Origin: Chloroflexota bacterium
Lineage (GTDB): Bacteria; Chloroflexota; Anaerolineae; Anaerolineales; UBA4823
Length of the DNA: 35,143 nt
Direction of reading: 5' to 3'
Assembly: GCA_020349245.1 (NCBI GenBank)
Contig: CP070764.1
Coordinates: forward strand, 1,453,205-1,488,347
The notes beneath the pieces are model-generated. The model made no database searches and had not been told where the DNA came from. It saw only the letters and a list, made by a program, of their open reading frames with translations. Positions 2,365 to 21,236 of this stretch are shown here, one piece after another. The position numbers and the translations under genes are program-made. Every line of letters begins with the position of its first letter. Position 1 is the first letter of the stretch.

Positions 2365-2477
2365 GGGAATTGCGACGATCTGATGGCCTAATTTGGTCGC
2401 TTCTCTGCCGAAAAGGTGGAATGGTCATCAGGGAGCGAATAGCGAAACCGGCCCTCGAGGTCGGTTTTAATTTTTTT
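2365..2477 (+). promoter_or_regulatory. Cyclic-di-GMP-II-type riboswitch with terminator, copy 1
   Basis: A structured leader of 113 nt. The elements in order are: GGGA at 2365; a degenerate GACGAT; P2 5' arm CTGATGGCC (2380-2388); TAATTTGGTCGCTT (2389-2402); a small hairpin (2404-2420); P2 3' arm GGTCATCAG (2423-2431); GGAG; and AATAGCGAAACCGGCC. The pseudoknot pairs TCGCT (2397-2401) with AGCGA (2441-2445). The order and bases parallel clostridial class II c-di-GMP aptamers (TAAATTGGGCACTT, GAG, AGTAGTGCAACCGACC). The clostridial pseudoknot GCACT/AGTGC has changed on both sides. P2 differs from copies 2 and 3 by paired substitutions. It precedes the surface protein gene at 2502. c-di-GMP as ligand is inferred from the match and has not been tested. 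Confidence 0.82.
2446..2477 (+). terminator. Riboswitch 1 expression-platform terminator
   Basis: AACCGGCC (2446-2453) pairs with GGTCGGTT (2459-2466) across a 5-nt loop, followed by TTTTAATTTTTTT. It lies 25 nt before the ATG of the downstream gene, so transcription must read through it for expression. Its 5' arm overlaps the conserved aptamer bases AACCGG. Confidence 0.8.
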
Positions 2478-2501
2478 GAAATCAATGGGTTGGGAAAATT
2501 T

Positions 2502-3356
2502 ATGACGAACATCTTCGACTCTTCTAAAAGCTTATTTAGCAAGTATTTCATCCTGATCCTGGGGGCTTGCCTGTTCGCAGGCATGCTTGTTGTGCTGCCA
2601 GGTTCACCTGCCCAGGCTGCAAAAAATGACTTGAGTTCTGCCCAGGAAGAGACCTGTACCCCACCAAATGATTGGGCACAGACCACCCGGGTTAAGAATC
2701 CTGAAAAGCCAACCAAGCAATGGACTTTCACCGTGGACAATCCGGAGATGCTGGTCAGCCTGACATTCTTCTACTACCAGGACTATAGCATACCCGGATG
2801 TCCGTATGACTGTAGCCAGGGAGACTGCCAGACAGATGAAACTGGCAATGGCACAACTCCCCTTGGGGATTTTACGGTGGTTGATGGAAAACTGGGTGCC
2901 AACCGGGGTTCAAAAAGGTTCGAGGGGCGTCTTCCACAGGGGACGTACCAGGTCTCCTTCACGGCCAATGGGAATCCAGGCTCACTGAATGTGGGCTTGA
3001 ACGTCCGCCAGAGCACAGTCCCCACTGCGACACTCTTTCCCACCAACACACCTCTGCCTACAACGCCGCCTCCCACCGCGACCTTGCCCCCAACCGTGAC
3101 CCCGACAGAGCCGGCGCGCACCCAGCCTCCCGCAAAGAATCCTACGCCTTCTCCGACCCCAAGACCGGGCCGGACACCGCCTGCAACTTTACCTCCGCCA
3201 ACACCATTCCCGGGATCACCGGCTCCTCAAGTTCTAATCCCGCAGACGGGGCTGGTGCCTGGCGCTAACGCTCTGGTCCTCCTGCCACTCGGGATCGGTC
3301 TGGTTGGTCTAGGGATCGCCTTCTACGGTATTACCAAGCGACTGAAGGCAAAGTAG
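2502..3356 (+). CDS. Secreted surface protein with LPXTG-like sorting signal (1)
   Basis: A 284-residue protein with a signal peptide (cleavage probably after SPAQA, about residue 38) and a compact N-terminal domain (about 40-185) that contains several Cys residues, including the cluster CPYDCSQGDC. A Pro/Thr linker (about 185-240) leads to the sorting signal IPQTG at 246-250, a hydrophobic segment and the basic tail TKRLKAK. A sortase should cleave within IPQTG and attach the protein to the cell wall. The N-terminal domain is not recognised. The start is the ATG at 2502. The frame is open upstream to a TTG at 2370, but that stretch is the riboswitch, so the longer form is rejected. It is the first of three similar substrates placed before a sortase gene. 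Confidence 0.85.
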   Translation: MTNIFDSSKSLFSKYFILILGACLFAGMLVVLPGSPAQAAKNDLSSAQEETCTPPNDWAQTTRVKNPEKPTKQWTFTVDNPEMLVSLTFFYYQDYSIPGCPYDCSQGDCQTDETGNGTTPLGDFTVVDGKLGANRGSKRFEGRLPQGTYQVSFTANGNPGSLNVGLNVRQSTVPTATLFPTNTPLPTTPPPTATLPPTVTPTEPARTQPPAKNPTPSPTPRPGRTPPATLPPPTPFPGSPAPQVLIPQTGLVPGANALVLLPLGIGLVGLGIAFYGITKRLKAK

Positions 3357-3477
3357 ATTACTCAAGGAGAAGCAACCATCGACCCTACTTTACTAACAGT
3401 GTAAATAAAACACAGTCACGCAAAGCAAACACAGGCGTGGGAAGACCTAGAAAATTTAAAAACTGAATAGATAACAA

Positions 3478-3585
3478 GGGATAAGCAATGATCCAATGAC
3501 CTAATCTGGTCGCTTATCTGTCCGCAAGGGCAGGAAAGTCATTGGGGAGCAAATAGCGAAACCGGCCCAAGAGGCCGGTTTTTTT
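3478..3585 (+). promoter_or_regulatory. Cyclic-di-GMP-II-type riboswitch with terminator, copy 2
   Basis: Same architecture as copy 1. GGGA starts at 3478, GATGA follows, and P2 is CCAATGAC (3493-3500) with GTCATTGG (3538-3545). The loop strand is TAATCTGGTCGCTT (3502-3515). The inserted hairpin is CTGTCC (3518-3523) / GGGCAG (3528-3533) with a GCAA tetraloop. GGAG and AAATAGCGAAACCGGCC follow. The pseudoknot is TCGCT (3510-3514) with AGCGA (3555-3559). Relative to copy 1, P2 pairs 2 and 3 change on both strands (T-A to C-G, G-C to A-T), which is direct evidence for a conserved RNA helix. No clear promoter or terminator separates it from the preceding gene, so it may be reached by read-through. 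Confidence 0.85.
3560..3585 (+). terminator. Riboswitch 2 expression-platform terminator
   Basis: AACCGGCC (3560-3567) pairs perfectly with GGCCGGTT (3573-3580); a run of seven T ends at 3585. The 8-bp GC-rich stem is a strong intrinsic terminator, 36 nt before the ATG at 3622. Confidence 0.85.
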
Positions 3586-3621
3586 ATTACCAATATAAAT
3601 ATTAAATATGGGAAGGAAAAA

Positions 3622-4476
3622 ATGAAAACATTTATCAATATCAAACGAATTACCAAGTTCAGCTATATACTCGGAATCGCCTGCCTGCTGGTTGGCATGA
3701 TGTTTTCAGTTGTCACCCAGACCGGGGAAGCGGCAACTGTCAACGGCCAGGGAAACTGCAGCACTGGATGGGTTGCCAAAGATGAAAACGCTCCCTTTGA
3801 ATACAACGGCAGCGAAACGATCATCAAAGCGATCGTCAAATCAGGCCGGGGATGCTTCCCGCTGACCATCAGCAACCCCAACGATGGCTGCTACAAAGCT
3901 GCTGGCCTGGGTACTAATTCTGTCCAAGTCACCCAGGTTGGCACTCCCGGCCCATCGTGCCAGGCAATATCACACGTCGAGTTCTATTCAGGCCCAACCG
4001 ATCCACCTCCGACAGAACCGCCAGCGACGGAACCACCAGCGACTGAACCGCCAGCGACGGAACCACCAGCGACTGAACCACCAGCGACTGAACCACCAGC
4101 GACCGAGCCACCGGCGACTGAACCACCGGCGACTGAGCCGCCAGCAACCGAACCTCCGGCAACCGAACCTCCGGCAACCGAACCTCCGGCAACCGAAACG
4201 CCCACCGACTCACCTGCAACGGTGACACCCACTGAGCCACCGGTAACCCCATCACCCACCGAACCACCGGCAACGCCAACTCCGCCTCCGACATTAGCCC
4301 AGCCCACTCCGATGAAGGGGACTCCACAAGTCCTGATCCCAGAGACCGGTCTTGATCTTTCCGGACCAAAGCAGGTCTTTGGCAGCCAGTTCTTCATGTT
4401 CCTGGGATTGACTTTTATCGGCCTCGGCCTGATCTTCCAGGGAGTAACCAAGCGGCGAGCTTCAGATCAGAACTAG
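3622..4476 (+). CDS. Secreted surface protein with PPATE repeats and LPXTG-like signal (2)
   Basis: A 284-residue protein. Residues 1 to about 38 form a signal peptide (ends GEAA). A small Cys-containing domain follows (about 39-125), not recognised. Next come twelve perfect PPATE pentapeptides (residues 133-192) and a further Pro/Thr stalk. The C-terminus has IPETG at 239-243, a hydrophobic segment and the tail TKRRASDQN. This is a typical wall-anchored stalked architecture: the small N-terminal domain is held away from the cell by a stiff Pro-rich rod. GGAAGG precedes the ATG. The tail shares PQVLIPxTGL with its upstream neighbour and IPETGLDLS with its downstream neighbour, which suggests one sortase serves all three. 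A hairpin at 4499-4552 follows the gene. Confidence 0.85.
   Translation: MKTFINIKRITKFSYILGIACLLVGMMFSVVTQTGEAATVNGQGNCSTGWVAKDENAPFEYNGSETIIKAIVKSGRGCFPLTISNPNDGCYKAAGLGTNSVQVTQVGTPGPSCQAISHVEFYSGPTDPPPTEPPATEPPATEPPATEPPATEPPATEPPATEPPATEPPATEPPATEPPATEPPATEPPATETPTDSPATVTPTEPPVTPSPTEPPATPTPPPTLAQPTPMKGTPQVLIPETGLDLSGPKQVFGSQFFMFLGLTFIGLGLIFQGVTKRRASDQN
4018..4197 (+). repeat. 15-bp tandem repeat, 12 units (PPATE)
   Basis: Twelve in-frame 15-bp units of the type CCNCCNGCNACNGAN encode PPATE. Units differ mostly at third codon positions, so the array is old enough to have drifted while the peptide was kept. The number of units sets the stalk length and could vary between strains. Confidence 0.9.
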
Positions 4477-4498
4477 TCAGCTCAGACCAACCCTATTG

Positions 4499-4552
4499 AG
4501 GGAGCAGCGCAGGCAGCAGAATGTTTTCGCCAATCCATGCCTCCTGCTCCCT
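4499..4552 (+). terminator. Possible hairpin after the second surface protein gene
   Basis: AGGGAGCAG at 4499-4507 pairs with CTGCTCCCT at 4544-4552 across a 36-nt loop. No T-run follows, so it is a weak terminator candidate or an RNA-stabilising stem. Confidence 0.35.
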
Positions 4553-4647
4553 TCACTAAGAAGGGCGAACGCATTTTGGGTAGAAGATCTTATGAAAGAG
4601 CGCAGAAAGCGCCAAAATCTATAATAATTGTGACAGAGATTGTATAG

Positions 4648-4653
4648 TATAAT
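4648..4653 (+). promoter_or_regulatory. Candidate -10 box for riboswitch 3 / third surface gene
   Basis: A perfect TATAAT in an AT-rich stretch, about 95 nt upstream of the third riboswitch. No good -35 hexamer lies at 16-18 nt. The transcript would include a small hairpin TAACGCA/TGCGTTA (4688-4712). If real, the third gene and the sortase can be transcribed independently of the first two genes. Nothing else was recognised in 4477-4748. Confidence 0.4.
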
Positions 4654-4748
4654 TAAAATTGGTCAAGTTCACCGGGTAAATAGCATGTAACGCAATTAAT
4701 TTTGCTGCGTTATTAACTGTAGACCACAAAAAAATGAATATCGATCAT

Positions 4749-4856
4749 GGGAAAAGCGATGATCCAGTGACTCAATATGGTCGCTTACCTATCCGCTAGG
4801 ATAGTAAGGTCATTGGGGAGCAAGTAGCGAAACCGGCCCGAGGGGCCGGTTTTTTT
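4749..4856 (+). promoter_or_regulatory. Cyclic-di-GMP-II-type riboswitch with terminator, copy 3
   Basis: GGGAAAAGCGATGAT starts at 4749. P2 is CCAGTGAC (4764-4771) with GTCATTGG (4809-4816). The loop strand ends TGGTCGCTT (4778-4786). The inserted hairpin is CTATCC (4789-4794) / GGATAG (4799-4804). GGAG and AAGTAGCGAAACCGGCC follow. The pseudoknot is TCGCT (4781-4785) with AGCGA (4826-4830). The 3' block matches the clostridial class II consensus AGTAGYGCAACCGRCC at most positions. The inserted hairpin differs from copy 2 by a G-C to A-T double change. This copy controls the third surface gene and, through overlap, the sortase. Confidence 0.87.
4831..4856 (+). terminator. Riboswitch 3 expression-platform terminator
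   Basis: AACCGGCCC (4831-4839) pairs perfectly with GGGCCGGTT (4843-4851) across a 3-nt loop, then a run of T to 4856. This is the strongest stem of the three, 39 nt before the ATG at 4896. Confidence 0.85.
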
Positions 4857-4895
4857 GTTATCTCCAAAACGGGTGTTGGGAAAGGGAAGAAGGAA

Positions 4896-6482
4896 ATGGC
4901 TAAGAGACCAAATAAGAACATCGGAATTTATGTATTTTTCCTAGCCACGATAGCAGGGTTGGTGCTGATTGGGGGTGTGCTGGCAAACAGTGCTGCCGCT
5001 TCCAACAGCGCTGTTGAAAGCAATAATGCCCTGTTTGTTGGGCAGGGGGTAAATTTATTTAGTCATGGGGGTACAACCAACGGTTGCTTTGTAGATAGAT
5101 ACAACGACGTTAATAATAAAAATGAGACTAGTCTGAATTGCACTGCCAATGATGTCCAGCTTGCACAGTACAGCTTGCTCTCAGGTCCTAATTCATGTGT
5201 GGAAGGGGAGGAGATCACTTTAACGCTATTGGGCCAATTCATCGCGACCGCGAGTGAGCGCTATGATGTCGGCATGTTTATCGCTACCGATGGAGGTGAC
5301 CCCAATACAAAGGGTGGAACCTGCTACAATGATTATCTGCACCCTGTTTCGTTAACCAACACTGATATAAATATCTCCACAGGAAACGGTCCGTTTTTTA
5401 ACGGTGAGCTCACTCAAGACACAAATGATTTCTGCGGTGATATTGAACAAAAACCTTCAGGCATAACTACTAACTTCAAAACGGCTGAGATTACCATAAT
5501 ATGCCAGGACAGTAACAACAATGGCACTGCTGATGTGAATAGCTGCACCGTTTGGTCGAATTCACGTTCGGATGGCTCAACAAATAAACCAAGCTGCGAG
5601 GATGAGTTTGACACAATTGCAGGGACAACCGCAAAATGCAGATGCGGACCCGTCGAGATCGCAGGACTCTCAGTGCCCCTCACTGGCACGATCGAAGTGA
5701 TCAAGGAACTTATCCCCAGCGACGCGCCGGGAGTGTTCAACCTGCAGGTCGATGGACAAACCGAATTCCCCAACGCCGGGAACGGGGACAGCACCGGACC
5801 GGTGACCGTTTCAGCAGGTCTTTCGACGGATCCTGATCCAATCGGGGAAACACACACCGTCGGGGAAACCGCAGGCAACGGAACTACTTTAAGCCTCTTT
5901 GATACTGAGATCTTCTGTGAAGATGATGATGATGAAACGGCATATGCTGCTGGCGCCGGTCCCCTGGATGTATTTGTCGAGCCGGATGACGCCTGGGTTT
6001 GCCGTATCGTCAACACCTTCAATGTAACCCCCGAGGCGACGAATACATCCACGCCAACCAATACCGCCACGCCGACCAACACGGCAACCGCAACCAGCAC
6101 AGCCACACCAACCAACACAGCAACTCCGACCAGCACCGGTACCCTTGTGGCTACTGAACCGATCGTGACCCAAACGCCCACGAACACACCGACGCTCACC
6201 AGGACCAGACCGCCGGCGACAAATCCACCCGCGACCAGCACGCCAACCAAGCGTCCACCGACTGCGACCGCCACAATTCCGTCCACGCTGGCCCAGCCCA
6301 CCTCTCCGGCAGAGACACCACAGATCATCATACCGGAAACTGGCTTGGACCTGTCATTATCTGGCCAAGGATCTGGTCTCAATGTGCTCATGATCCTCCT
6401 GCTGGGATTGGGTTTCGTCGGAATCGGCTTGATGTTCCACGGCATTTCAACGCAGCTGCTTCGAAATAGGCGAAAGAAATAA
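4896..6482 (+). CDS. Large secreted surface protein with LPXTG-like sorting signal (3)
   Basis: A 528-residue protein. The signal peptide is about residues 1-36. An N-terminal region (about 40-255) with several Cys is not recognised. A segment starting GTIEVIKELIPSDAPGVFNL (about 264-370) resembles the prealbumin/SpaA-like beta-sandwich repeats found in Gram-positive surface proteins. A long Thr/Pro/Asn linker (about 375-470) of TPTNTAT-type repeats leads to IPETG (about 479-483), a hydrophobic helix and the basic tail LLRNRRKK. GGAAGAAGGAA precedes the ATG. The stop codon overlaps the sortase start by one base (TAATG), so the two are probably translationally coupled. Probable function: adhesin or surface-layer component; the ligand is unknown. 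Confidence 0.85.
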   Translation: MAKRPNKNIGIYVFFLATIAGLVLIGGVLANSAAASNSAVESNNALFVGQGVNLFSHGGTTNGCFVDRYNDVNNKNETSLNCTANDVQLAQYSLLSGPNSCVEGEEITLTLLGQFIATASERYDVGMFIATDGGDPNTKGGTCYNDYLHPVSLTNTDINISTGNGPFFNGELTQDTNDFCGDIEQKPSGITTNFKTAEITIICQDSNNNGTADVNSCTVWSNSRSDGSTNKPSCEDEFDTIAGTTAKCRCGPVEIAGLSVPLTGTIEVIKELIPSDAPGVFNLQVDGQTEFPNAGNGDSTGPVTVSAGLSTDPDPIGETHTVGETAGNGTTLSLFDTEIFCEDDDDETAYAAGAGPLDVFVEPDDAWVCRIVNTFNVTPEATNTSTPTNTATPTNTATATSTATPTNTATPTSTGTLVATEPIVTQTPTNTPTLTRTRPPATNPPATSTPTKRPPTATATIPSTLAQPTSPAETPQIIIPETGLDLSLSGQGSGLNVLMILLLGLGFVGIGLMFHGISTQLLRNRRKK

Positions 6483-7327
6483 TGAGATATACCCTGATCA
6501 ATAACTGGAGTATTTTTGCAGGATTCCTCCTGGCCATCCTCGCCATGTCAGGGATGCTGGTGACTGTATTCCTGCCAGTAACCATTTCCTTCGATCTGCC
6601 AAGCGATCAGGGTATTGGCTCCCTCGAAGTCCCCTTGAAACCAATCCACCAGGAAAAAACAAACAATTTTCAATCAGCTGTGGTTGAACGCAAAATTGTA
6701 ACTACCAAGGAAAGTGTTGATGATGCGGACAGGGAGGATTCATCCCAGGTCGTACTCTCTGCTCCAAACCCGGTAAAGGTTGAGCCATCATTGGTTAAAG
6801 ATGCATCCCAAGAGACTGAGGCTTTACCTGCAGTCCAGCTTCCACCAGAAGTCCCTGTCCGCATTGTTATCCCTTCCATCGACCTGGATGCCCCGGTCAT
6901 CCCTGCACCGGTGAGCTTCGAAAAACTGGCTGGCAAGGAATTCATGCGCTGGTCTGTGCCTGACCAGTTTGCCTCTGGTTGGCACACCACCTCGGCGATG
7001 CTGGGTGAAACCGGCAATACTGTCCTCAATGGCCACCACAACGCCTATGGAGAAGTCTTCGTCTCCCTGGTGGATGTGGAAATTGGAGACATGATCTGGG
7101 TCGAATCGGAAAACAGCCGCTTCAGCTACCAAATTACGAATAAGATGATCCTGCCAGAGAAATACGAGCAGCTGGATGTACGCATGAACAATGCTCAATG
7201 GCTCTTGCCTTCGATTGATGAGCGATTGACACTGATCACCTGCTGGCCATACGAGACAAATACCCACCGGTTGATCATCGTGGCCCGCCCGCTGGGACGC
7301 GAAGAAATCAACAGAGTATACAAATAA
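6482..7327 (+). CDS. Sortase (class D/E-like), dedicated to the surface cassette
   Basis: A 281-residue membrane-anchored transpeptidase: it cleaves the sorting signal between Thr and Gly and links the protein to the cell wall. There is one N-terminal membrane segment (about 12-33), a linker of about 85 residues, and the sortase barrel from about residue 125 (VPVRIVIPSIDLDAPV). Catalytic residues visible are His in LNGHHN (185/186), Cys254 in TLITCWPYE and Arg263 in THRLIIVAR. The pattern fits class D/E sortases; the class is not settled by eye. Its ATG overlaps the stop of the upstream substrate gene, which places it under the third riboswitch. A strong terminator follows at 7359. The upstream genes with IP(Q/E)TG tails are the obvious substrates. 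Confidence 0.92.
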   Translation: MRYTLINNWSIFAGFLLAILAMSGMLVTVFLPVTISFDLPSDQGIGSLEVPLKPIHQEKTNNFQSAVVERKIVTTKESVDDADREDSSQVVLSAPNPVKVEPSLVKDASQETEALPAVQLPPEVPVRIVIPSIDLDAPVIPAPVSFEKLAGKEFMRWSVPDQFASGWHTTSAMLGETGNTVLNGHHNAYGEVFVSLVDVEIGDMIWVESENSRFSYQITNKMILPEKYEQLDVRMNNAQWLLPSIDERLTLITCWPYETNTHRLIIVARPLGREEINRVYK

Positions 7328-14874: not shown

Positions 14875-15906
14875 CTACAGGAATTGTTCTGCGAAGTGGC
14901 AGGCGACGAAGTGATTGGGTTTCAGCTCGCGCAGTTCTGGAAGATCTATACTACATATTTCTTTGGCAATCGGACAGCGTGGGTGAAAACGACAACCTGG
15001 AGGAGGATTTATGGGGTTTGGAATTTCGCCTTCTGGCATTGGTTCTGTACGTCTCTTATCCGGATCTGGAATAGGAACCGCAATTAACAAGGCCTGTGTA
15101 TAAGGATGTAATGGATTGGAATAAACTTCCTTCAAATTTCCAACTTCAGCCAAGTGACCTAGATATAAGATACCGATACGATCACATATATATTTTGCAG
15201 TTGCCAAGTCATGGGTGATAAACAGGTATGTCAGATTTAATTCATCTTTCAATTCACGCATCAGATCCAATAGTAATGCCCGTACGCTAACATCAGCCAT
15301 AGCGATAGGTTCATCTGCCAGAATAAGGTCTGGGTTGGTAACTAATGCCCGAGCAATAACTACTCGTTGCCGCTGACCACCAGAAATCTGGTGAGGGTAT
15401 TTTGTATAGAAAAAATAAGGGGGTGACAATCCGACGCGTTCCATGATATTCATAGTCATATCGCGATGTTCAGATGATTTTTCAGGATAATGGATCTTGA
15501 GACCGTGGGAAATAGATTCGCCCAAAGGCATACGCGGGTTCAAAGATGCCATGGGGTCTTGAAAAATTACCTGCATACGTCGTCTCAGGAGACGGAGCTC
15601 CTCTGGTTTTAATGAATTGAGATGAATACCATCAAAGCATACATTTCCTTCGGTTGGTGGGATCAACCCGATAATCATGCGCCCTATGGTTGTCTTTCCA
15701 CTTCCACTCTCACCTGCTAACCCGAATACCTCGCCACGCCGGATATGGAATGAGACCCCGTCCACAGCACGAACATAATCAATTTTCCTTGCTAATATTT
15801 GATCGATAAATCCTTTCTGTACAGGAAACCATTTCTTCAAATTAATAATTTCAACCAAGTTGTCCCAATCCATATCTGCACAGGGACCCATCTTAATTTC
15901 GCTCAT
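14875..15906 (-). CDS. oppF: Oligopeptide/dipeptide ABC transporter ATP-binding protein OppF-like
   Basis: A 343-residue cytoplasmic ATPase subunit of a peptide importer. Walker A is GESGSGKTT (about 69-77), the signature is SGGQRQRVVIARAL, and Walker B is LILADEP. The C-terminal oligopeptide-transporter tail PPGCRFHPRCPIAKEIC carries the conserved Cys residues seen in OppD/F and DppD/F. The D-loop reads AMAD where SALD is common. The gene overlaps the end of oppD by four bases, so the two subunits are translationally coupled and probably form a heterodimer. It is the last gene of the operon and is followed by a terminator. Confidence 0.93.
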   Translation of the reverse strand: MSEIKMGPCADMDWDNLVEIINLKKWFPVQKGFIDQILARKIDYVRAVDGVSFHIRRGEVFGLAGESGSGKTTIGRMIIGLIPPTEGNVCFDGIHLNSLKPEELRLLRRRMQVIFQDPMASLNPRMPLGESISHGLKIHYPEKSSEHRDMTMNIMERVGLSPPYFFYTKYPHQISGGQRQRVVIARALVTNPDLILADEPIAMADVSVRALLLDLMRELKDELNLTYLFITHDLATAKYICDRIGILYLGHLAEVGNLKEVYSNPLHPYTQALLIAVPIPDPDKRRTEPMPEGEIPNPINPPPGCRFHPRCPIAKEICSIDLPELRELKPNHFVACHFAEQFL

Positions 15907-16919
15907 GGTTGCACCTTGACAGCTTCTGCTTCTTTTTCAGGGTGATCTTGGAAAAGCCAGCAGTGTACCAATCTACCTGGAGCAGCTTCTTCAAGCGTTG
16001 GCTCTATGCGCCCACAAATTGGCATCACATCTGGGCAGCGGGGGTGAAAACGACATCCTTTCGGCGGGTGAGTCAAGTTAGGGGGTTCACCAGGCATCTT
16101 GTATAGCTCTTCTTCATCATCGATGCGGATACTGGGTACAGATTTCATCAATCCACGGGTATAAGGATGTAATGGTTCGTGAAAAACATTTTCTACGCTC
16201 CCAATCTCCGATATTCTTCCTGCATACATGACAGCAACCCGGTCGGCTATCTCGGCTACTAAGGCAATGTTGTGAGTTATCAATAAGATCGTAATTCCAA
16301 ACTCGTCCCGTATTTCACGCAGCTGATCAACAAGGTTCGCTTCCACGATCACATCCAAGGAAGTGGTTGCTTCATCTGCGATAATAAGGCTGGCATTTAG
16401 CACCAATCCCAGGCCCACCATTACCCGCTGACGCATACCACCAGAAAGATGGTGGGGGTAATCGGTGAGGCGGCGCTTCTGGATTCCCAGACGTTCGATT
16501 AATTCCCGGATACGTTCCATGGCCTGCTCAGTAGCTGTTTTCGGTTCATGTACCTTGATCGCCTCCACCAGATGTTGATCAACCCGCTGTACTGGATTGA
16601 GACTGGTCATGGGATCCTGAAAAATCATACTGATCTGGCGACCTCGGAAATCTCGTAAACGTTCTTCGCTGAAGGTCATCACATCTTCTCCATCAAAGAA
16701 AATGTGACCATTGACAATCTCCCCAGGAGGAGTGATCATGCGCATTAGAGCCTTGCCAAACGTGCTTTTACCACAACCGCTTTCCCCCACCAACCCAATG
16801 ATCTCACCCCGATAAATATCGAATGAGACATCATCCACCGCACTCACTGCGCCTAATCGAGTTTCATAATTTACACACAGATTGCGGATTTCCACAAGCA
16901 CGTTTTTTTGATCAGCCAT
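15903..16919 (-). CDS. oppD: Oligopeptide/dipeptide ABC transporter ATP-binding protein OppD-like
   Basis: A 338-residue ATPase. Walker A is GESGCGKST, the signature is LSGGMRQRVMVGLGL, Walker B is LIIADEA and the D-loop is TSLD. The C-terminal Cys-containing tail is PPKGCRFHPRCPDVMPIC. The usual DEP after Walker B reads DEA here; the catalytic Glu is kept. It lies 3 nt downstream of oppC and overlaps oppF by four bases. It powers import of peptides or similar solutes through OppB/OppC. Confidence 0.93.
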   Translation of the reverse strand: MADQKNVLVEIRNLCVNYETRLGAVSAVDDVSFDIYRGEIIGLVGESGCGKSTFGKALMRMITPPGEIVNGHIFFDGEDVMTFSEERLRDFRGRQISMIFQDPMTSLNPVQRVDQHLVEAIKVHEPKTATEQAMERIRELIERLGIQKRRLTDYPHHLSGGMRQRVMVGLGLVLNASLIIADEATTSLDVIVEANLVDQLREIRDEFGITILLITHNIALVAEIADRVAVMYAGRISEIGSVENVFHEPLHPYTRGLMKSVPSIRIDDEEELYKMPGEPPNLTHPPKGCRFHPRCPDVMPICGRIEPTLEEAAPGRLVHCWLFQDHPEKEAEAVKVQP

Positions 16920-16922
16920 AAT

Positions 16923-18185
16923 TTACAGCTCCGACAAGCGAGGATTCAAGATCTCGCTTAGACTTTCACCCAGCATACTGAAAGCCAGGGTAACCAGGGT
17001 AACCATCACACCCGGGAATGTGATCAACCACCAGGCTCTGCGTAGATAATCCTGCCCACGTGCCAGGTCAATGCCCCAATCTGGAGTGTCGGGCGGCAAT
17101 CCGAGACCGAGGAAACTCAATCCCGCTTCGGTTAAGATGGCATCAGCGACATTTACGGAGAAAATGATCACCACCGAAGGGATCACATTGGGGAAGATAT
17201 ATCGCCAAAGGATAGTGCGAGATTTTGCTCCCAAGCTCTGAGCGGCTTCGATATATAATTCTTGCCTCACAGAGAGAACCTGCCCTCGCACAATTCGAAA
17301 GTACGTAGGGACATATAAAACCGCAATAGCGATGATAATATTGCCTATGCCCGCGCCCAGAACAGCAGCAATAGAAATTGCGAGGATCAAACCCGGAAAA
17401 GCATAGAGGCTATCCATGATAAGTGTCAGCACCCGGTCTAAAGAACCACCGACATATGCGCTGATCAATCCCAACGGCACCCCAATTACCAATGCAAATA
17501 AAGCTGAACTTAAACCAACAATCAAGGCTATCCGGGTACCCCAGATAATACGGCTGAAGATATCCTGTCCTATCTGGTTGGTGCCCATCACAAATCCGCG
17601 TTCAGCAGCCTCTCGCAATCCACTGACTATCTCCAAATCAGGATAGCTTTCAAGGATTGCTTCCAATTCTTGGGGTGAGGCGATAAAACCTTCAACCTCT
17701 CCAGTCTGCAAGGCATCTAAACCTTCCTCAAGTGTTTCGTAGCGTTTTGGTCGGGGCTGATAGCGTACACCTTCCTCGGCCGTCTGGTTGAGTTCATCAA
17801 GCGCATCCCGCAACGCTTGACTGGATGGGGTAGCAACCTGGTATCCAATATAATTATCAGTGTTGGCAATATCCCGCAGCGCGGTCACTCCAGAGCTGAT
17901 TGGTGCAACCAGCACATAAGCTGAGGGTGACTCACCCGGAGAAAGTAACGAAGGGCCTACTTCAGCCCGAGGATCATACGGTGCGAACCATTGGGGGAAA
18001 ACACCCACGGTTATCACAAAAAGCAATAAGATTGAGCTGAGCACCACAAACCACCAGTCGCCACCATACCATTTGCGAGCCATCAGCATACGGCGGACGG
18101 AGCCCACCCGATCTAGTTCTAACATCCAATCTGGAACGGCTTCTGCAGAGGGAGAGAATTTGTAGTCTGGTTGAGTATTTTGCAT
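16923..18185 (-). CDS. oppC: Oligopeptide ABC transporter permease OppC-like, with an inserted extracellular domain
   Basis: A 420-residue membrane protein; relatives are about 280-310. TM1 is at about 44-64, followed by the family sequence WFAPYDPR. Then comes an insertion (about 84-198), and the canonical text resumes with MGTNQIGQDIFSRIIWGTRI, five more membrane helices and the EAA loop YIEAAQSLGAKSRTILWRYI that docks on the ATPases. The insertion contains YIGYQVATPSSQALRDALDE and TLEEGLDALQTGEVEGFIAS, which resemble the second half of small amino-acid-type periplasmic binding proteins. It sits in the first extracellular loop, where it could touch the substrate-binding protein. The start lacks a good ribosome binding site; an 81-nt gap separates it from oppB. 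Confidence 0.9.
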   Translation of the reverse strand: MQNTQPDYKFSPSAEAVPDWMLELDRVGSVRRMLMARKWYGGDWWFVVLSSILLLFVITVGVFPQWFAPYDPRAEVGPSLLSPGESPSAYVLVAPISSGVTALRDIANTDNYIGYQVATPSSQALRDALDELNQTAEEGVRYQPRPKRYETLEEGLDALQTGEVEGFIASPQELEAILESYPDLEIVSGLREAAERGFVMGTNQIGQDIFSRIIWGTRIALIVGLSSALFALVIGVPLGLISAYVGGSLDRVLTLIMDSLYAFPGLILAISIAAVLGAGIGNIIIAIAVLYVPTYFRIVRGQVLSVRQELYIEAAQSLGAKSRTILWRYIFPNVIPSVVIIFSVNVADAILTEAGLSFLGLGLPPDTPDWGIDLARGQDYLRRAWWLITFPGVMVTLVTLAFSMLGESLSEILNPRLSEL

Positions 18186-18266: not shown

Positions 18267-19289
18267 CTAATAACGGATACGAGGGTCGACGAACGCATAT
18301 AAGACATCCATTGCTAAACTGATGCCAGCGACAAATACCGCAAACACTGCGATGGTCGATTGAACCGCAGTGTAATCGCGCAGCTGGATGCGGGTGACCA
18401 GGTAGCGACCGATCCCGGGCCAGGAAAAAGTGGTCTCCGTGAGCACGGCGCCAGCCATCAGGATCGCCAGCTGCAGTCCAATCAAGGTTAGAATAGGAAT
18501 AAACGTGTTGCGTAATGCGTGCCGATAAGCCAGACGCCGCTCAGGCAAGCCGCGCGCCCTTCCGGCGGTGATGAAATCAGCTTGTAGCATCTCGATCATA
18601 TTTACCCGGGTCAAGCGAATGAACACACCAGTGAGTGCCAAGCCCAATGTTAAAGCTGGTAAGACAAGGTGTTTGAGAGCGGACAACAAGGCCGGCCAAT
18701 TGCGGGTTAGGATCGCATCCAAGACATAAAAATTGGTGATCGAGTTAAAATTGACCAGAAGTAAGGGATTCATTCTTCCGGCGAGAGGAAGGATATTAAG
18801 GCGTACGGAGAAAATAATCTGAAATATAAGACCTAAGAAGAAAATCGGAATGGAATAAATGATAATACTGAACAAACGGATTCCAAAATCTTCTGGTTTC
18901 TTTCGCCTTCTTGCAGCAAAAGCCCCAAAAAAAATCCCAAATATCGCGGTAAACGTCATGGCTGGAATGGTCAGCTCGATCGTCGCTGGGAGCTTCTCGG
19001 AGAGTTCCTGACGAATGGGTCGCTCCCCCTGGGTGAGTGCCGTACCAAAATCTAAGGTAACCGTTTTCCACAAGAAATCAAAGTATTGGATATAAAGCGG
19101 GCGATTAAGTCCCAGGCGTTCTGCGATGCGATCAGCCTGCTCTGCGCTCACACGCGGTCCAAGCTGGGAACGAATCGGATCTCCAGGTAATATGCGCATG
19201 ATAACAAATACAAAAGTGATCAGGATCAACACCATGGGGATGGTAAGCAGCAAGCGGGTGATCAAAAAATTACGGAAAGAAGCAGACAT
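18267..19289 (-). CDS. oppB: Oligopeptide ABC transporter permease OppB-like
   Basis: A 340-residue permease with about six membrane helices. The N-terminal helix (about 11-31) is followed by the family signature RILPGDPIRSQLG and LGLNRPLYIQY. The EAA loop, which contacts the ATPase, is seen near the C-terminus as ARGLPERRLAYRHALRNTFI. It forms the translocation pore with OppC. AAGGAG lies 10 nt before the ATG. A terminator-like hairpin between oppA and oppB probably reduces expression of this and later genes relative to the binding protein. Confidence 0.93.
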   Translation of the reverse strand: MSASFRNFLITRLLLTIPMVLILITFVFVIMRILPGDPIRSQLGPRVSAEQADRIAERLGLNRPLYIQYFDFLWKTVTLDFGTALTQGERPIRQELSEKLPATIELTIPAMTFTAIFGIFFGAFAARRRKKPEDFGIRLFSIIIYSIPIFFLGLIFQIIFSVRLNILPLAGRMNPLLLVNFNSITNFYVLDAILTRNWPALLSALKHLVLPALTLGLALTGVFIRLTRVNMIEMLQADFITAGRARGLPERRLAYRHALRNTFIPILTLIGLQLAILMAGAVLTETTFSWPGIGRYLVTRIQLRDYTAVQSTIAVFAVFVAGISLAMDVLYAFVDPRIRY

Positions 19290-19318
19290 TACCGCAGCTC
19301 CTTGAACTGGAAAAAATT

Positions 19319-19345
19319 AAGGGGCGAGGATTCTCCCCGCCCCTT
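19319..19345 (-). terminator. Attenuating terminator between oppA and oppB
   Basis: AAGGGGCG (19319-19326) pairs perfectly with CGCCCCTT (19338-19345); on the minus strand AATTTTTT follows. A second hairpin, GTTCGAG/CTCGAAC at 19384-19402, lies right after the oppA stop. This fits higher oppA than permease expression. Confidence 0.75.
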
Positions 19346-19404: not shown

Positions 19405-21162
19405 TTAAGGCACATCACATTGTTGCGTTTCTGGCCAGTTTGCCACTGTTAGCGGATAGCAGTGGTTGAACACCAAATAGCGCAAGGCAGGAGCATCGAC
19501 CCTAGTAACGGTCACACCCTCTACGTCCATTAAGCGGGTGGCTTCCACAGGCCCCAAGATACGCCAGGCGATATCGATCTCACCACTCTCGACGGCGTTT
19601 GACATGGTCGTCGGGTCAGCAAAGTAACGCACGATGACGTTGGGGATCACAGGTGCTTCACCATGGTAATTGGGATTAGCTTCCAGCACCATCTGCTCAC
19701 CGGGAGCGTAGGAGACCATGCGATAGGCACCGTTGCCATCCAAGATCTCTGGGAACTGGACGATTTCATCTGCGGGGAACTGGTTGGGGTTCGCCGGGAT
19801 GAAGGGTGCAGTTGCCGCTAATGCAGGGAAGAAACCGAAGGTATCCTTCAGTGTGTAAACCACTGTCAGGTCATCCAATGCTGCCACACTATCCACATAT
19901 ACCTGGATCAAACCAGAAACCTGCCCTTCAAGCGTGTTGAGGCGGTCCCAGGAGTCTACGTAGGTCTGGGCGTTGATCGGGGTACCATCGGCGAACTGGA
20001 GGCCTTCGCGCAGTGTAAAGGTGTAGGACAAGCCATCCTCGCTGACGGTTGGCAACTCAGCTGCTGCACCTGGAATTAGATCAGCGGTCCCTGGTACATA
20101 TTTCAAAAGAGGTTCTCCGGTATTTTTGAGAATCTCCCAGTCATGGGTAGCATATGCATCTTGTGGGTCAAGGCTGTTAACTTCATCGGTTGTACCAATA
20201 ATGATCGTGTCAGGGCTACCGGATACCGGTGCAGATCCTTCTCCAAAGCTAACCACATCATAAGAGAATTCGAAGGGAGCACCAATGGCGACTCCTTCTA
20301 CACCGTTGCGTACGGTGACAAATTCCGGCTCCCAGAACAATGGGATGGTGGGAAGATCCTCAGCATAGAATTCACCAAGTTCTGAATAGGTTTGTTCACG
20401 CACTGCCGTATCTGCCGAAGCGGCACCTTTCAAGAGCAATGCATCCATTTGCTCGTTGCAGTAGAATACACCATTATCATTCGAGGCTCCACAAGAGGCA
20501 AACGGCGTTAACCAGGTCTCCGGGTCGACAAAGTCAGGGAACCAACCCAAAATGAAGAAAGGCAGCTCACCAGCAACAAAGCTGTCCACGTACTCAGCCC
20601 AGTTTTGGCTGACAAGCTCGACCTGCACCATGCCGGTCTCTTCCAGCTGCTCCTTGACCACCTGCATGACATCAGCTGTGGTGGTACCGTAGTGCTCAGG
20701 AGGGTACCAAAGTTCAAAGACAAAGGGATTTTCCTCAGAATAGCCTTCCTGCGCAAACAACTCTTTCGCTAACTCCAAATCGCGCACACCATACTTATCC
20801 AAGAAAGGTTCAGTAGCATATGGATAGCCAGGAGGTACCATGTGATAGGCAGGCGGGTTGCGCCCTTCGAAGACCCGGTCAACGATCACCTCACGGTCGA
20901 TGGCAGCCGCCACGGCTTGGCGTAATCCTATGGTCCATAATGGTCCTTCTGCCATTGGCTCTTCCATGGGCTCCTCAGTGGGTTCTTCCATGGGTGCCTC
21001 GGTGGGCTCTTCCATGGGTGCCTCAGTCGGTTCCTCCATGGGTGCTTCGGTCACCACTGCTTCCTCTGTTGGTGCTTCAGTGGCAGCCGGTGCACAAGCG
21101 ACCAACACTAAGGTTGTGGCAACAAGTATTGCAATTATTGCCAGTATTTTTTTCTGTTTCAT
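19405..21162 (-). CDS. oppA: Family 5 peptide-binding lipoprotein OppA-like, circularly permuted
   Basis: A 585-residue lipoprotein: lipobox LVAC with Cys23, then an acidic Pro/Met/Thr linker of EAPMEEPT repeats to about residue 72. Residues 75-306 are what is normally the C-terminal half of a family 5 binding protein (LRQAVAAAIDREVIVDRVFE, MVPPGYPYATEPFLDKYG, QTYSELGEFYAEDLPTIPLF). A Gly/Ser/Pro linker (307-318) leads to what is normally the N-terminal half (319-585: TIIIGTTDEVNSLDPQDAYA, SEDGLSYTFTLREGLQFADG, ending ALRYLVFN and a short tail). The order is therefore swapped and both joins are in linkers. All conserved blocks appear once, so the fold can still close. The start is the ATG at 21162, with GGAGGAGAG upstream. 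Confidence 0.9.
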   Translation of the reverse strand: MKQKKILAIIAILVATTLVLVACAPAATEAPTEEAVVTEAPMEEPTEAPMEEPTEAPMEEPTEEPMEEPMAEGPLWTIGLRQAVAAAIDREVIVDRVFEGRNPPAYHMVPPGYPYATEPFLDKYGVRDLELAKELFAQEGYSEENPFVFELWYPPEHYGTTTADVMQVVKEQLEETGMVQVELVSQNWAEYVDSFVAGELPFFILGWFPDFVDPETWLTPFASCGASNDNGVFYCNEQMDALLLKGAASADTAVREQTYSELGEFYAEDLPTIPLFWEPEFVTVRNGVEGVAIGAPFEFSYDVVSFGEGSAPVSGSPDTIIIGTTDEVNSLDPQDAYATHDWEILKNTGEPLLKYVPGTADLIPGAAAELPTVSEDGLSYTFTLREGLQFADGTPINAQTYVDSWDRLNTLEGQVSGLIQVYVDSVAALDDLTVVYTLKDTFGFFPALAATAPFIPANPNQFPADEIVQFPEILDGNGAYRMVSYAPGEQMVLEANPNYHGEAPVIPNVIVRYFADPTTMSNAVESGEIDIAWRILGPVEATRLMDVEGVTVTRVDAPALRYLVFNHCYPLTVANWPETQQCDVP

Positions 21163-21236
21163 CTTACTCTCCTCCAACTAGTATAAAGAATATCTTCTAC
21201 TTCTTTTGACGTGCAACAAAAAATGAATTTTTCCAC
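21159..21236 (-). CDS. Possible leader peptide upstream of oppA (25 codons)
   Basis: A GTG at 21236 is preceded four bases upstream by AAAGGAGG, close to a perfect match to the 16S 3' end and stronger than any other site in the window. The frame runs 25 codons, includes Cys-Cys (FCCTSKE) and ends WRRVR, with a TGA that overlaps the oppA ATG in the ATGA arrangement. An inverted repeat TGACGTG/CACGTCA brackets the first codons. This is either a translated leader coupled to oppA or a chance frame beneath a strong ribosome-binding element. No homology is known to me. Confidence 0.4.
   Translation of the reverse strand: MEKFIFCCTSKEVEDILYTSWRRVR

Follow-up and report, generated by a model that had tools for sequence, protein, structure and literature searches.

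The minus-strand gene at 19405..21162 of the window, the 35,143-nucleotide stretch of DNA analysed here, very probably encodes the lipid-anchored solute-binding protein (SBP) of an Opp/Dpp-type ABC importer, circularly permuted in an ancestor of several Anaerolineae lineages. We also think it probable, with less certainty, that cluster C proteins underwent at least four independent natural permutations in Chloroflexota, three of them at one loop, and that the permuted forms took over conserved importer operons and spread through the taxonomic order and the phylum, and into one other phylum. This would be an unreported, recurrent change of topology for which normal-order orthologues in the same operon serve as natural controls.

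The open reading frame (21162..19405, 585 codons) encodes a family-5 binding lipoprotein and starts with an ATG at 21162, preceded by the ribosome-binding site GGAGGAG at about 21169-21175. The signal peptide and lipobox occupy residues 1-23 (21094..21162). The lipobox LVLVAC (residues 18-23) supplies the export signal expected of cluster C SBPs, and its Cys23 is nearly invariant in alignment A2. It is followed by an acidic PTEEPMEEP tether linker (residues 24-72, 20947..21093), for which the model gives a pLDDT below 50 at residues 22-71. The old C-terminal half now comes first (residues 73-302, 20257..20946), and by phmmer and the model it comprises OppA/DppA domain III with the C-terminal piece of domain I. 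Where the normal-order sister L066 has free ends, a new linker, the SFGEGSAPVSGSP region (residues 303-318, 20209..20256), connects the former C-terminus to the former N-terminus. The old N-terminal half is now last (residues 319-585, 19408..20208); according to the model and the NikA match it comprises domains I and II together with hinge strand 1, and its end lies in the loop that opens domain III. These blocks, all on the minus strand, agree to within a few residues with the boundaries 75-306, 307-318 and 319-585 proposed in the first-pass annotation, which had also described each block as occurring once; the only direct repeat in the gene is indeed the acidic linker, with a period of 12 nt (20945-21051). 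On the plus strand at 20820-21209, antisense to this linker, the repeat creates long open frames (129 and 107 aa) that are probably not genes.

The reversal of the halves is seen with several profiles. The whole protein scores 244.6 bits against Pfam SBP_bac_5 (PF00496; cut-off 32.4, E 2.3e-72) in two stretches, with profile positions 211-367 upstream of 2-208, both complete and in one open frame. Similarly, NCBIfam models align residues 73-293 of the window protein (P0001) with DppA 302-521 and residues 317-534 with NikA 5-222, while L066 gives a single stretch, 34-529, against GsiB 13-502. A profile of 38 normal-order relatives matches residues ~80-306 at positions 321-545 and then ~311-570 at positions 54-314, these residue numbers being counted from a TTG five codons upstream of the ATG. 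By phmmer against sequences of solved structures, residues 318-558 correspond to OppA 13-269 and residues 73-289 to OppA 282-496; the matches shown are all to family-5 proteins, with none to cluster B (MglB). Sequence and predicted structure together equate residues 73-302 with DppA/OppA ~275-510 and residues 303-562 with OppA 1-274. The order claimed earlier, and the intactness of the frame through the join, are therefore borne out; aligned separately to family-5 proteins, the halves fall in reversed and not in normal order. A chance match is excluded by the E-values and by the many genomes that retain this order. The protein thus belongs to PF00496 and cluster C by score and homology, but lacks the canonical N-before-C order and is therefore best filed as a permuted offshoot of family 5, not as an ordinary member.

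The whole permuted chain was modelled by AlphaFold2 from 24 permuted proteins with moderate confidence (pLDDT 79.8, pTM 0.74), the tether at residues 22-71 being disordered. Modelled residues 303-562 superpose on OppA 1-274 (Z 24.1, rmsd 2.5 A, 250 residues). A sequential fold search with the full model matches one half at a time, as a permuted chain should give, and the C-half was therefore modelled separately; alone, it superposes on DppA 271-507 (Z 17.9, rmsd 5.5, 223 residues). The two modelled halves together span the full mature canonical protein, and would pack into one bilobed molecule. Published OppA boundaries assign residues 1-44, 189-269 and 487-517 to domain I, 45-188 to domain II and 270-486 to domain III (PMC6305025), and the hinge of cluster C proteins consists of two strands (PMC7312458). 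On these boundaries the cut falls immediately behind hinge strand 1, in the loop (OppA ~275-280) with which domain III begins, and both hinge strands and the entire bilobed fold are predicted to be retained. The idea that the cut interrupts a hinge strand, so that only one of the two crossovers remains, was dropped, since the published domain boundaries and a predicted strand at residues 550-565 put the cut after the strand. The loop at the cut site in L066 is LRYLVLNHAFPPHDNNNVNAAIAAAIDRE; permuted proteins end in LRYLVFNHTY.. and begin with ..PLWTKELRQAIAAAIDRE. L066 has a free C-terminus, FEFLYSELYEE, and a free mature N-terminus, QEAKTIIIGTTDE; in the permuted proteins these old termini are bridged by a FEFNYNVLSFGPDAQPASGSTDTIIIGTTDE-type linker.

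A scan of the genome collection produced 49 related loci, and sorting by the order of the halves gave ~27 intact permuted loci, namely the P0001 clade (about 65-80% identity per half) and L064 (~45%). Looking for the permuted order in related genomes, as the first-pass annotation had proposed, turned it up in more than 25 of them, including those of the isolates Pelolinea submarina MO-CFX1 (a complete chromosome), Longilinea arvoryzae KOME-1 and Anaerolinea thermolimosa IMO-1, and within the window's own family in G011 (74%) and G028 (72%). An assembly or binning error, in which halves of neighbouring normal-order genes were misjoined, had to be considered, as the window genome is ~93% complete with 5% contamination, and a repetitive linker could mislead assembly; the assembly of G004, from the same genus, stops in an N run right there. 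Nevertheless, more than 25 genomes that were assembled independently, one of them a complete isolate chromosome, contain the same junction with 65-80% identity, and the join at 20209-20256 is ~700 bases away from the repeat. The isolate genomes already refute this explanation, whose probability we regard as practically nil. The G004 fragment (L125:8324-8878) carries only a signal peptide and acidic linker, followed by the N run and an unrelated gene; scaffolding has probably left a gap where the repeat lies, and the fragment is uninformative on order.

The permuted protein is old, maintained and under purifying selection. Median dN/dS (Nei-Gojobori, NG86) is 0.09 for the C-half and 0.15 for the N-half, with a maximum of 0.39, in the 79 of 253 pairs that could be computed, most synonymous divergences being saturated and the window gene being in none of the 79. 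It is thus extremely improbable that the gene is a decaying, non-functional relic, a pseudogene left by a tandem duplication. The unusual order and the broken frame of one relative, L061, would fit a relic, but nearly all copies have an open frame, dN/dS is about 0.1-0.15, the lipobox is intact and the binding residue invariant, and the operon has no other SBP gene. The earlier suggestion of a working protein is upheld by the order kept in more than 25 genomes, the dN/dS well below 1, the conserved operon and the invariant equivalent of OppA D419. The frame of the permuted orthologue L061:4149-5800 is broken inside the N-half, through either an assembly error or pseudogene formation. Another permuted orthologue, L055:5635-7491, has a LysM-like N-terminal segment (YTVQADDWLSKLAEKEYGDPLAF), free of Pfam matches, in place of the lipobox and acidic linker, and may be a natural anchor swap. 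Relatives of the window protein were not found among the viral contigs searched. In plasmid records, the best 10 matches to the window protein all came in two pieces, the pattern of normal order.

The permuted gene heads a five-gene operon, SBP-permB-permC-ATPase-ATPase, of the Opp/Dpp type and is its only SBP. Downstream on the same strand lie an OppB/DppB-type permease (18267..19289; Pfam BPD_transp_1, a conserved neighbour), an OppC/DppC-type permease (16923..18185; Pfam, likewise conserved) and ATPases of the OppD/DppD (15903..16919) and OppF/DppF (14875..15906) types, both with ABC_tran and oligo_HPY. DppA D408 binds the N-terminal amine of the peptide (PMC8566422). The equivalent OppA D419 aligns with Asp210 of the window protein (codon 20533..20535, minus strand), and Asp stands there in 24 of 24 permuted proteins. 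Peptide uptake is the best-supported function, and the product is most likely a working peptide receptor. A strong hairpin followed by a T-run (19311..19345, minus strand; MFE of the region -45.3 kcal/mol, z -5.7) separates the binding-protein gene from the permease gene and may be an attenuator or processing site, typical after an operon-leading SBP gene. Such hairpins are often seen in operons that produce an excess of binding protein. An Rfam scan of the window gave no match. The OppC-type permease carries an extra ~110-aa stretch (IGYQVATPSSQALRDALDEL...EGFIASPQELEAIL) ahead of BPD_transp_1 that resembles a small binding-protein-like domain. A Pfam search of this stretch found no match. 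The length of the permease, ~420 aa, is common to permuted and normal-order operons.

The likely route, of the kind proposed in the first-pass annotation, would start with a tandem duplication of the binding-protein gene within the operon. The C-half of copy 1 would then have been fused to the N-half of copy 2 with loss of the outer halves, joining the old N- and C-termini through a ~15-residue linker and creating new termini beyond hinge strand 1. The product would fold as one unit and, with the Venus-flytrap closure usual for such proteins, would trap peptides between its lobes and pass them to its permease. Its membrane tether now enters at domain III, not at domain I, a move that may have effects of its own. 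The same five genes occur in the same order with normal-order binding proteins in L066-L083; because permuted and normal forms head the same operon, the switch happened in place.

Alternatively, the halves of two different paralogues could have been fused, without permutation of one gene. The genome has many SBP paralogues and fusion is a possible route, but the two halves are about equally identical (60% and 59%) to the same sister, L066, and trees of the N-half and of the C-half each need the same two switches. In both half trees L064 groups with the same seven-row set, and the rows nearest to L066 are the permuted clade. The agreement of the trees shows that both halves come from one gene lineage, and makes a chimeric origin very unlikely. 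The tree built from the four transporter subunits likewise calls for two switches, one in the main clade and a separate one in L064. L066 itself is the sister of the main clade in the binding-protein tree and falls outside both groups in the transporter tree rooted on L074; this difference makes local recombination around L066 possible. Permutation of one gene by tandem duplication remains plausible as a route: the common ancestry of the halves stands, and a relative has a tandem normal-order pair, while the route itself is inferred. This pair, in the orthologous operon of G007 (L124, G007:C43), consists of two normal-order SBP genes ahead of the same permease genes. It shows, in a present-day genome, the arrangement that the route requires and that could give rise to a permutation by duplication; it does so by analogy and not as the actual intermediate, as it belongs to a different normal-order branch.

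Sorted by the profile of 38 normal-order relatives, 59 of 117 ORFs, a set in which some loci were entered twice, are permuted. A tree of 93 homologues, built after the segments were put into a common order, has at least four changes of permutation on well-supported branches; its deepest branching is uncertain owing to long-branched rows, and on any single branch a loss, that is, a return to normal order, is possible instead of a gain. The rearrangement of the window gene is ancient and clade-wide, and the family has undergone at least four such permutations independently, this one included. Three switches share the cut loop of the window gene: the window clade beside normal L066 (support 99/98), L064 within a normal-order group (100/100), and the L016/L018/L107 group beside normal L110/L117 (100/100). 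The members of this last group are of ~700 aa, with extra sequence within the N-half, and are widespread in the order. The fourth switch (100/100) is that of one large DppA-like clade, cut at a second site inside the N-half (family-profile 157/165). Junction-spanning matches place this clade in 36 of 301 sampled genomes of the phylum and set it sharply apart from normal-order proteins, whose matches come only in separate pieces. Among 400 genomes of the order, the best ~150 matches listed, from at least roughly 140 genomes, all cross the whole junction of the second cut in one frame. In another phylum the form was found in 4 of ~250 sampled genomes, all with E <1e-60. The best 15 plasmid matches to a protein of this clade come in two pieces with the normal-order pattern. 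Longilinea arvoryzae has three permuted paralogues.

Recurrence at the same loop might mean that the permutation is adaptive, the tether moved to domain III altering lobe dynamics or permease docking. This is compatible with a recurrent in-place permutation and would suit the identical cut loop in three independent lineages, and a tethering idea was proposed by the authors of the TpMglB-2 study for their permuted protein (PMC4990184). However, the recurrence may merely reflect the tolerance of the loop for new termini, and the large DppA-like clade is cut at another site; we therefore consider adaptation rather unlikely.

Natural circular permutations are uncommon, and are as a rule regarded as isolated, ancient events that separate distantly related proteins. 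A search of open-access papers found none that combines OppA with circular permutation, and no report of a permuted protein of the OppA/DppA type. The closest known precedent is TpMglB-2 (Tp0684) of Treponema pallidum, of another fold cluster: this cluster B sugar-binding protein, itself a circular permutant, was shown to bind glucose and to change conformation (PMC4990184). Like the window protein, it is a membrane-tethered binding protein of an ABC transporter with a natural permutation, but it has a Type I fold and another ligand, and its cut in the N-lobe adds a fourth hinge crossover (PMC4990184). Its C-terminal part is poorly conserved relative to normal relatives, whereas both halves of the window protein are clearly homologous to theirs. 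With OppA, DppA and NikA (family 5, cluster C, PF00496) the window protein shares homology over both halves, the predicted three-domain bilobed fold, a signal peptide, the Opp/Dpp-type operon and the amine-binding Asp (OppA D419 = D210); it differs in the reversed halves, the linked old termini, the ends after hinge strand 1 and the tether at domain III. L066, from an Anaerolineae MAG, has the same family and five-gene operon at 60% identity, but the canonical N-then-C order. The large DppA-like clade (L019, L032, L088-L097 and others) is also permuted and widespread in the phylum, but runs late-N, C-half, early-N and has a separate origin.

Permuted and unpermuted orthologues that are 60% identical and share an operon, with a switch that recurred, allow a direct test of how moved termini and a moved tether affect ligand binding. 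For the construction of permuted OppA/DppA biosensors, the cut loop offers a natural site already tested by evolution. Linear profile searches break such proteins into two matches, and many annotated SBPs in the phylum probably have an unrecognised order.

Elsewhere in the window, the plus strand at 2370-7327 carries three genes for secreted proteins (2370-3356, 3622-4476 and 4896-6482) and then a sortase gene (6482-7327; Pfam Sortase). The three proteins end in I-P-[QE]-T-G, in which I replaces the L of LPxTG, followed by a hydrophobic stretch and basic residues. By these sequence features, the region reads as a compact sortase-substrate cluster.
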